Positions 30,025 through 35,263 of a DNA stretch of 41,369 nucleotides are shown piece after piece (position 1 is the stretch's first letter; each line of letters begins with the position of its first letter). This DNA comes from Deltaproteobacteria bacterium (lineage in GTDB: Bacteria; Desulfobacterota; GWC2-55-46; UBA9637; GWC2-42-11): NCBI GenBank assembly GCA_016223005.1, contig JACRPW010000011.1, positions 1 to 41,369 of the forward strand, read 5' to 3'. The notes under the pieces are model-generated. The model was not told the origin of the DNA, did no database searches, and saw nothing but the letters and a program-made list of their open reading frames with translations. Both the position numbers and the translations under genes were made by a program.

Positions 30025-31485
30025 ATGTCAAAGCAGTACAGATTTCTTATAAATGGAGATTGGCGGGAATCATCAAAAAAACTAGAGGTCAGAAATCCAT
30101 ATAATAATGAAGTTATCGGCATTGTGAACCTTGCCATTGAAAAGGATTTGGAGGATGCTGTTGTTTCATCTCAAAAGGCATTTGAATTCACACGGAAACT
30201 CCCTGTTTATAAAAGGGCAGAGATTTTAGAGAATATTGCAGAAGGTCTTAAATCAAGAATAGAGGAGATTGCAAAAACCATAACCCTTGAGGCAGGAAAG
30301 CCAATAAAGGATTCACGGACAGAGGTCCACCGTGCAGTAAATACATTTCAAATTGCAAAGGAAGAGACAAAACGGATTTATGGAGAGGTTATGCCTCTGG
30401 ATTTGATGGCAGGCTCTGAAAACAGACTTGGCATTGCAAGACGCTTTCCAATCGGTCCTGTCTTTGGTATCACACCATTTAATTTTCCGCTCAATCTTGC
30501 AGCCCACAAGATGGCGCCTGCTATAGCATCAGGCAACACAATGATTTTAAAGCCTGCCTCAAAGACGCCGTTATCAGCAATTATTTTAGGAGAGATTGTT
30601 TCAGATGCAGGCTTTCCAGCAGGCGGGTTTAATGTTGTCCCGTGTTCAGGTTCTCTTGCAGAGAAACTGGTTGCAGATGAAAGGATTAAAAAAATCACAT
30701 TTACAGGGGGTCCAGATGTTGGTTTGAGATTAAAAAACCTTGCAGGTATGAAAAAGGTTACCCTTGAACTTGGCGGCAATGCAGGTGTGATTATCCATAA
30801 TGACGCGGATATTGCCTTTGCAGCAAAGAGATGCGTTATAGGTGCATTCTCACATGCAGGGCAGATATGCATCTCAATCCAGAGGATATTTGTTCATAAG
30901 GATATTTATAAAGAGTTCACTCACAGGTTTCTTGCAAATATAAGGGCATTAAAACTAGGCGACCCTATGGATGAGGCAACAGATATTGGTCCAATGATAA
31001 GTTGTAATGATGTAGAAAGAATAGGTAAATGGGTAAAAGAGGCAGTAGAAGAGGGGGCTGAGATATTGATTGGCGGAAAGGCGAGGGGTGTATTTTATGA
31101 GCCAACTGTTTTAACTGATGTCAAACCATCAATGAAGGTCTGTTGCGAGGAGGTCTTTGCACCTGTTGTAACAGTTTCTCAATATAATGATTTTGAAGAG
31201 GCGGTCAAATCTGTAAATGATTCAAGATACGGTTTGCAGGCAGGGGTGTGGACAAGGGATATAAAAAATGTCTTTCATGCCTATAATGAACTAGAAGTAG
31301 GCGGTGTGATTGTAAATGATATACCAACATACCGCATAGACCACATGCCTTATGGCGGTGTGAAAGATTCTGGTTTTGGCAGGGAAGGTGTCAGATATGC
31401 AATTAAAGAGATGACAGAGATTAAACTCCTGGCTTTAAATTTGGTGGCGGTGCGTGGACTCGAACCACGGACAAAGGGCTTATGA
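30025..31485 (+). CDS. NAD(P)-dependent aldehyde dehydrogenase, lactaldehyde/GAPN-like
   Basis: The protein has 486 residues. TPFNFPLNLAAHKMAPA, the catalytic Glu in LELGGNAG, the catalytic Cys in GQICISIQRI and CCEEVFAPV define the ALDH superfamily; GQICISIQR is typical of the lactaldehyde / non-phosphorylating GAPDH branch. The substrate is open. Relatives end near EMTEIK plus a few hydrophobic residues. Here the frame goes on for about 14 codons (VAVRGLEPRTKGL) through the antisense of a tRNA gene, and the TGA lies across its anticodon loop. A clear promoter and GGAGG precede the start. Confidence 0.92.
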   Translation: MSKQYRFLINGDWRESSKKLEVRNPYNNEVIGIVNLAIEKDLEDAVVSSQKAFEFTRKLPVYKRAEILENIAEGLKSRIEEIAKTITLEAGKPIKDSRTEVHRAVNTFQIAKEETKRIYGEVMPLDLMAGSENRLGIARRFPIGPVFGITPFNFPLNLAAHKMAPAIASGNTMILKPASKTPLSAIILGEIVSDAGFPAGGFNVVPCSGSLAEKLVADERIKKITFTGGPDVGLRLKNLAGMKKVTLELGGNAGVIIHNDADIAFAAKRCVIGAFSHAGQICISIQRIFVHKDIYKEFTHRFLANIRALKLGDPMDEATDIGPMISCNDVERIGKWVKEAVEEGAEILIGGKARGVFYEPTVLTDVKPSMKVCCEEVFAPVVTVSQYNDFEEAVKSVNDSRYGLQAGVWTRDIKNVFHAYNELEVGGVIVNDIPTYRIDHMPYGGVKDSGFGREGVRYAIKEMTEIKLLALNLVAVRGLEPRTKGL

Positions 31486-31518
31486 GACCCCTGCTCTGGC
31501 CGCCTGAGCTACACCGCC
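31442..31518 (-). tRNA. tRNA-Met (CAU), CCA encoded
   Basis: On the minus strand the acceptor GGCGGTG pairs with CACCGCC. The D arm is GCTC/GAGC, the anticodon stem GGGGT/GCCCT carries loop CTCATAA (anticodon CAT), and the T arm is CGTGG TTCGAGT CCACG. Discriminator A and a genomic CCA follow. The features fit an elongator tRNA-Met. A tRNA-Ile(CAU) needing lysidine is the main alternative; initiator is unlikely, since the first acceptor pair is a normal G-C. Confidence 0.92.
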
Positions 31519-31527
31519 ACATCTTAT

Positions 31528-31555
31528 CCCAAAAAATGCAGTTGCATTTTTTGGG
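31528..31555 (-). terminator. perfect 13-bp palindrome between VCBS gene and tRNA
   Basis: CCCAAAAAATGCA, a 2-nt loop and TGCATTTTTTGGG lie directly after the stop of the minus-strand VCBS gene and 9 nt before the tRNA. The T-run is inside the stem rather than after it, so termination is plausible but not textbook; it could also be a processing site for the tRNA. Confidence 0.55.
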
Positions 31556-33326: not shown

Positions 33327-33710
33327 CTACCCTTCCTTTATGTCAATCTCAACAGCAGTCCAAATGCCGTCAGGGGTTATCAGTTTTTTTAAGACAACCT
33401 TATATGAGATTCCCTTATTGTCTTTTACAGCAACAATAGATTCCTGATTGTTTTCTGAAAGTATCTGGCAGTTTTCTGTCTTTACATTTACACCCTCGTT
33501 TATAAGTGCTGCATGGGCAACATCCTTTGCACTCCTCCTCCATAACTGATTTCCATTTTCAACAGTTGCCTGAAGTTTTTTTTCATTGTCCATAGATACA
33601 TTCAATTTATAGACCTTCACATTATTTATATGTGCGACTGCCTCTTCAGATTTAGAACAGCCCGAAAGAAAAAGCAGGGAAATGACCATGATACTAATAA
33701 TATTTTTCAT
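33327..33710 (-). CDS. hypothetical small lipoprotein
   Basis: The protein has 127 residues, with a lipoprotein signal ending in lipobox LSGC (Cys near residue 18). The rest is soluble and I do not recognise a family. It overlaps the metG stop by 4 nt and is followed by a strong terminator, so it is the last gene of that operon. No role is assigned. Confidence 0.7.
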   Translation of the reverse strand: MKNIISIMVISLLFLSGCSKSEEAVAHINNVKVYKLNVSMDNEKKLQATVENGNQLWRRSAKDVAHAALINEGVNVKTENCQILSENNQESIVAVKDNKGISYKVVLKKLITPDGIWTAVEIDIKEG

Positions 33711-35239
33711 ACCTCCTCCATTTTAGGGAAAAGAGGCTCTCCTTTTTTGAGTATAGCCCCCTCCTTTAATCCCCCCCATCTTATTTCTTCGTCAAAATCT
33801 ATCTTTGAAATATCCCTTTCAATACCTATCTGCTGCCATATATTTTCTGCTGATGCAGGCATAAAAGGATATATCATAACTGCACTTATTCTCAATATCT
33901 CAAGACAGTTGTATAATATATTTATCAGATTATCTTTTTTTTGAGGTTCTTTTGCCAGCATCCATGGGGACATCTCATCTATATATTTGTTTGCCGTTGA
34001 CAGAATCTCCCATACGGATGTTAAAGCCTTGCTAAACGCAAGTTCTTCCATAGATGCCTCAAACTTTCTAATAGATGAAGTAAGTGTATCTTTTAGGTTA
34101 TTATCCGAGGAGCAGGGTGCAGCAGGTTTCGTAACTTCACCGTTAAGATATTTTACAATCATTGCAAGTGTTCGGGAAAGCAGGTTTCCCAGATTATTTG
34201 CCAGATCACCGTTTATCCTTCCCACGAGTGCCGTTTTTGAAAAATCACCATCCAAACCAAAAGGGACATCTCTAAGAAGAAAATATCTGAACGGGTCAAC
34301 ACCATATATATCAATCATCCCATTTGGATCAACCACATTGCCAAGGGATTTGCTCATCTTCTGCCCTTCAACTGTCCACCACCCGTGGGCGAATATCTTC
34401 TTTGGCAGAGGCAGTCCTGCGGATAAAAGCATAGATGACCAATAAACAGCATGAAATCTTAAGATGTCTTTACCGATAATATGAATATCCGCAGGCCAGA
34501 AATACATGAACCTTTCATCAGGATAACCTGCAGCGGTAAGATAATTGGTCAGGGCATCAAACCACACATAGACGATGTGTTTGGGGTCATCTGGAACAGT
34601 GATACCCCATGAAAATGAAGTCCTGCTTATAGATAAATCCTTCAAGCCATCCTTGATAAAACTCACAATCTCTTTTCTTTTACTTTCAGGCTCAATAAAG
34701 TCAGGATTTGCCTCAATATGTTTTAAGAGTGCATCCTGATACTTAGTCATCCTGAAGAAATAACTCGGTTCCTTTAGTTTTTCTACAGCCCTTTTACAGT
34801 CAGGGCATCTGCCATCCATTAACTGTTTTTCAGTAAAAAATGACTCGCATGGTGTGCAGTACCAGTCCTCGTATTCGCCCAGGTATATATCGCCATTTGC
34901 TGCAATCTTTTTCCACAGATATTTGACAGCCTTTTTATGCCTCTCCTCTGTTGTCCTGATAAAGTCATTGTTGGATATATTCAGTTTCTTCCAGAGTTCC
35001 TTAAACCTGACTACCACTTTATCAGCCAATTCTATAGGCTTCAGGTTTGATGAAAGGGCAGTCTTTTCAACCTTCTGCCCATGTTCATCTGTGCCGGTGA
35101 GAAAAAGGCAATTGCAGCCTTTAAGCCTTTTATATCTGGCAATACAATCTGCTGCCACAGTTGTATATGCATGCCCGATATGCGGGACATCATTAACATA
35201 GTATATAGGGGTTGTTATGTAAAATGGTTTGTTTGACAT
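33707..35239 (-). CDS. metG: methionyl-tRNA synthetase MetG
   Basis: The protein has 510 residues from ATG 35239 (MSNKPFY); the frame opens earlier at a GTG just after the ricT stop, which is less likely. Class I motifs are PHIGHAYTT and GQKMSKSLGN. A zinc knuckle is YCTPCE...CPDCK. It ends after the anticodon-binding helical bundle and lacks the C-terminal EMAP/Trbp111-like dimer domain of longer MetG proteins. It charges both initiator and elongator tRNA-Met. Confidence 0.96.
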   Translation of the reverse strand: MSNKPFYITTPIYYVNDVPHIGHAYTTVAADCIARYKRLKGCNCLFLTGTDEHGQKVEKTALSSNLKPIELADKVVVRFKELWKKLNISNNDFIRTTEERHKKAVKYLWKKIAANGDIYLGEYEDWYCTPCESFFTEKQLMDGRCPDCKRAVEKLKEPSYFFRMTKYQDALLKHIEANPDFIEPESKRKEIVSFIKDGLKDLSISRTSFSWGITVPDDPKHIVYVWFDALTNYLTAAGYPDERFMYFWPADIHIIGKDILRFHAVYWSSMLLSAGLPLPKKIFAHGWWTVEGQKMSKSLGNVVDPNGMIDIYGVDPFRYFLLRDVPFGLDGDFSKTALVGRINGDLANNLGNLLSRTLAMIVKYLNGEVTKPAAPCSSDNNLKDTLTSSIRKFEASMEELAFSKALTSVWEILSTANKYIDEMSPWMLAKEPQKKDNLINILYNCLEILRISAVMIYPFMPASAENIWQQIGIERDISKIDFDEEIRWGGLKEGAILKKGEPLFPKMEEV

Positions 35240-35263
35240 TTTTACTTCTTTATCTCCTGACAC

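Follow-up and report, generated by a model that had tools for sequence, protein, structure and literature searches.

In the window, the 41,369-nucleotide stretch of DNA from an uncultured deltaproteobacterium analyzed here as a whole, the open reading frame of an aldehyde dehydrogenase (ALDH) runs into the antisense strand of a tRNA-Met gene and stops at its anticodon. We wondered how a protein gene came to end inside a tRNA gene, where the enzyme would normally have ended, and whether the overlap is of consequence for either product.

The ALDH frame and its native end

According to the ORF listing of the window, the ALDH frame (30025-31485, + strand) is intact, begins with ATG and encodes 486 amino acids. 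The protein contains a full-length Aldedh domain (PF00171; E 7.5e-160), with residues 13-467 matching profile positions 1-459 of 461. C282 and E248 are invariant in an alignment with relatives (15 sequences), and we take them to be the catalytic cysteine and the general-base glutamate. The ALDH reaches no curated cut-off among the NCBIfam models listed: the best of them, lactaldehyde dehydrogenase (NF040648), gave 526.9 bits vs a cut-off of 650, and no substrate is therefore assigned.

Comparison with relatives places the native end of the enzyme. The ALDHs of two genomes of the same family terminate in LLALNLM (G001, 75% identical) and LLALNFG (G002), class relatives with a complete ALDH end have their stop at LLALNL or no more than a few residues away, and more distant ones are similar. 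The native end thus lies at about residues 473-475, to within a few residues at EMTEIK-LLALNL, and the native part of the protein is formed by residues 1-473 (30025..31443, + strand). The sequence-only reading had placed the family end at EMTEIK, which is too early, as relatives continue to LLALNL; that additional residues follow the native end is correct, since in the alignment the relatives stop near LLALNL, before the tRNA-derived residues begin.

With LLALNL being native, the added tail consists of the 13 residues VAVRGLEPRTKGL (residues 474-486; 31444..31482, + strand). It is read wholly from the antisense strand of tRNA-Met, and two bases of the preceding codon, 473, are already within the CCA end of the tRNA. 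No tail similar to VAVRGLEPRTKGL is present in any ALDH relative compared, and the longer C-terminal tails found on some distant homologues are unrelated to it. The frame is closed by a TGA (31483..31485, + strand) antisense to T33 and the anticodon bases C34 and A35: the anticodon loop CTCATAA reads TTATGA on the opposite strand, which in the ALDH frame is TTA TGA. The tail requires no selection, because an open frame without its native stop must end at this loop. Re-computed coordinates agree with the earlier description of two convergent genes that have 44 bp in common (31442-31485), with the stop at the anticodon.

An AlphaFold model of the ALDH has a mean pLDDT of 87.1, with means of 68 for residues 471-480 and 45 for residues 481-486; its input alignment was shallow (15 sequences) and residues 438-448 also display low confidence. 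The low values in the tail are compatible with a flexible extension. The tail could in principle confer a new property on the ALDH, such as stability, an oligomer contact or localisation, and it continues the frame of an intact enzyme. However, its sequence is set by the tRNA, its last six residues are those modeled with the mean of 45, and it has no counterpart in relatives, which together make an adaptive tail highly improbable.

The tRNA-Met gene and the origin of the junction

The gene that converges on the ALDH is an elongator tRNA-Met(CAT) (31442..31518, - strand), identified with ARAGORN and RF00005 (match 31445-31518, 63.1 bits vs a 29-bit cut-off). CCA is encoded (complement of 31442-31444) and the acceptor stem, GGCGGTG/CACCGCC, is completely paired. 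The gene has 99% identity with its G001 counterpart and one extra base in the D loop, and on the strength of this similarity it is probably functional. The D loop at 31496-31505 reads GGCGGCCA in the window vs GGCGGCA in the nearest relative, and both lengths occur in the class.

The genome from which the window comes (G000) is a 1.8 Mb draft of 102 contigs, reported to be 100% complete. It has 38 tRNA matches, 30 loci of which were typed, and the typed CAT tRNAs are an initiator (L118), one that resembles tRNA-Ile2 (L114) and the elongator of the window, the elongator and Ile2 types being distinguished by sequence resemblance alone. A DNA search of the genome with the tRNA returned no second copy, and the window's gene is the only elongator tRNA-Met found there. 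A methionyl-tRNA synthetase gene (33707-35263, - strand) lies ~2.2 kb upstream of tRNA-Met. In G001 the 20 kb around the tRNA do not contain this gene, and its closeness in the window may be chance.

The neighbors on each side of the overlap have separate histories. Directly upstream of tRNA-Met and on the same strand is a gene for an FG-GAP-repeat protein (PF13517; 31556..33199, - strand), an ancestral neighbor that occupies this position in 28 of the 32 class genomes (L070-L082, L151-L169); of the four genomes without the pair, some have the loci concerned near contig ends. The 5' neighbor of the ALDH is a bioA-like class-III aminotransferase gene (PF00202; 28489..29964, - strand), and the two are divergent neighbors in both the window and G001. 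The ALDH adjoins tRNA-Met in the window's genome alone: in G001 and G002 it is found elsewhere, and its 3' neighbor differs between relatives. As the FG-GAP and tRNA-Met pair is class-wide, the bioA-like and ALDH pair is present in G001, and no other genome brings these blocks together, the arrangement of ALDH and tRNA is derived, and the comparison supports a rearrangement breakpoint that fell exactly at the tRNA 3' end and removed the ALDH stop. Judged by where the ALDHs end and what flanks the tRNA in G001 and G002, the junction between the blocks is at 31438..31445, where the two parent sequences have at most ~3 bases in common, TGG. It had been suggested from the sequence that a deletion joined the two genes and removed the original stop; the joining and the loss of the stop are borne out, and the event itself may have been a deletion, an inversion or a translocation.

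We consider it very likely that the locus as a whole represents a lineage-specific rearrangement junction, which caused a rare, near-neutral stop-codon shift and left the ALDH with a tRNA-derived tail. A block ending in the ALDH, broken off at its stop or a few bases ahead of it, would have been fused precisely to the 3' end of the opposing tRNA-Met. Translation of the ALDH would then proceed 13 codons into the antisense tRNA and stop at the TGA supplied by the CTCATAA loop, and the ALDH mRNA would carry sequence antisense to the tRNA in its 3'-terminal part. Normal function is probable for both the ALDH and the tRNA, with the tail being non-adaptive.

The joint could instead be an artefact of assembly, a chimera of two loci or organisms that is absent from the cell. 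The genome is a draft represented by one assembly, no same-genus genome was among the relatives found, and the joint falls exactly on the boundary of a tRNA whose near-identity between relatives might mislead an assembler. However, a misjoin through overlap would sit inside common sequence, of which the joint has at most the ~3 bases mentioned above; tRNA-Met is single copy in this genome, the G+C content is alike on either side and the ALDH frame is open across the joint. We therefore regard an artefact as improbable, and the rearrangement as the better account of the junction.

The 3' end of tRNA-Met as an integration hot spot

The sequence that follows tRNA-Met varies in the class. Its 3' neighbor is nadD in G001, tRNA-Lys in G002 and ndk in five members of the order (G003, G005, G007, G008 and G010). 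In 7 of the 32 genomes (G004, G009, G015, G017, G021, G032 and G043; loci L074, L077, L082, L157, L162, L164 and L167) a whole or fragmentary tyrosine integrase lies beside the tRNA-Met 3' end, with the integrases of G009 and G015 verified by Pfam. G004 and G009 also have a copy of the 3' half of tRNA-Met directly before ndk, the position expected of attR. These integrases and attR-like half copies make the tRNA-Met 3' end an integration hot spot in the class. Half-tRNA copies are located at L083, L084 and L085, and in G009 a distance of 37.5 kb separates the tRNA from its half copy on the same contig.

The breakpoint probably lies where it does because the tRNA-Met 3' end is a recurrent site of tyrosine-integrase integration, so that its flank is often replaced. 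An earlier insertion followed by imperfect loss would be a plausible way to arrive at a breakpoint at the exact 3' base of the tRNA. No integrase lies at the ALDH-tRNA locus, and a DNA search gave no attR-like copy of the tRNA 3' half in the window's genome, so a role for an integrase at this locus is suggested by analogy with the relatives. A candidate att remnant, a 17-nt match at C62:13391, is within a flagellar hook/rod-like gene and was taken as chance. As for the reciprocal junction, the nadD gene of this genome is on a contig separate from the window (C92), with no tRNA or ALDH remnants upstream of it.

Consequences of the overlap and relation to known systems

A terminator-like palindrome on the + strand (31528..31555) may be where the ALDH mRNA ends. 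As it comes after the tRNA on this strand, the mRNA would probably include the whole antisense tRNA. The palindrome is a dispersed repeat: its core, AAAATGCAACTGCATTTT, is present in 4-29 copies per genome in G000, G001, G002, G004 and G006, in which the reversed control of AAAATGCAACTGCATTTT has 0 copies. One of the G000 copies (C20:23970) is also near a tRNA gene, that of tRNA-Asn. On the tRNA strand, no terminator-like site was found between the tRNA and the ALDH.

Transcripts antisense to tRNAs have been reported in Pseudomonas aeruginosa (PMC8765398) and Buchnera (PMC6867890), and such RNA is thus tolerated elsewhere. These reports could also be read in favor of an overlap kept by selection, with the tRNA under the control of ALDH transcription or of the ALDH's antisense 3' end, or the ALDH under that of the tRNA transcript. 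The sole elongator tRNA-Met found would face an antisense RNA in the ALDH mRNA, and the tRNA strand lacks a terminator-like site in the interval described above. However, the overlap occurs in one genome only among those examined, its geometry is the automatic result of the joint, and tying the sole elongator tRNA-Met found to one metabolic gene would seem costly, which makes selection for such a function very unlikely. We give still less credence to the overlap being kept as a control in which transcription or mRNA of the ALDH antagonises this tRNA or keeps integrases away from its 3' end, which if true would link aldehyde metabolism to translation or to the entry of elements. Were the overlap functional, the supply of the tRNA would be tied to a metabolic gene; nothing found favors this, and the earlier proposal that the overlap may affect the ALDH or the tRNA-Met product is unsupported.

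For 218 distinct tRNA genes of the sampled genomes, we looked for ORFs of at least 90 codons that reach into or through the antisense tRNA, and 22, including that of the ALDH overlap, had one. The seven most suggestive of the other 21 (L178, L185, L198, L262, L180, L127 and L234) were checked for domains, the remaining 14 being shorter or less suggestive. None of the seven had a Pfam match, and several appear to be antisense of coding sequence. Within this survey and these seven checks, no protein gene verified by its domain was found to end in an antisense tRNA other than the ALDH. A 154-aa ORF ending in the antisense of tRNA-Met in G030 (L160) was rejected, being antisense to a 321-aa glycosyltransferase-like frame, and of ten overlaps in an initial stop-to-stop scan several were artefacts of counting sequence ahead of the start codon. 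A literature search, conducted largely outside subscription journals, returned no paper on a bacterial protein gene that ends inside an antisense tRNA.

The extension of proteins at the C-terminus through loss or shift of the stop codon has been described (PMC4494051; Vakhrusheva et al. 2011, as cited in PMC4161906). The ALDH bears the mark of a stop-codon shift, its orthologues ending earlier at a conserved position, and as in stop-loss extensions, DNA that did not code before now adds a short C-terminal tail to a protein that already existed. Here, in contrast, a functional tRNA supplies the newly coding sequence from its antisense strand, and it was a rearrangement junction that cost the gene its stop. 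The locus also resembles bacterial convergent overlapping pairs (PMC4161906), in which genes on opposite strands have common 3' ends after a stop has moved, except that the partner here is a tRNA gene rather than a protein gene.

Two further comparisons concern the tRNA itself. The tail peptide is a tRNA gene read as protein, as in the spurious tRNA translations collected in AntiFam (PMC9710616; an example is given in PMC5897793). Unlike in those cases, the frame ahead of the tail is that of a verified enzyme with no earlier stop, and from its sequence the tail should therefore really be translated. As at tRNA attachment sites for integrases, the joint is at the exact tRNA 3' end, and the tRNA-Met genes of relatives have integrases and attR-like half copies, whereas the locus in the window retains neither an element nor an integrase or attR. 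The ALDH thus fits the known stop-codon shift, and what is unusual is the partner: a tRNA in antisense, located at a hot spot for integrases. It looks like a harmless genomic accident rather than a new mechanism.

The locus nevertheless provides a clean natural case of a rearrangement on a tRNA integration hot spot giving a protein a tail dictated by an essential RNA. It also bears on annotation: a rule by which protein genes are shortened or discarded for overlapping a tRNA would harm the genuine frame of this ALDH.
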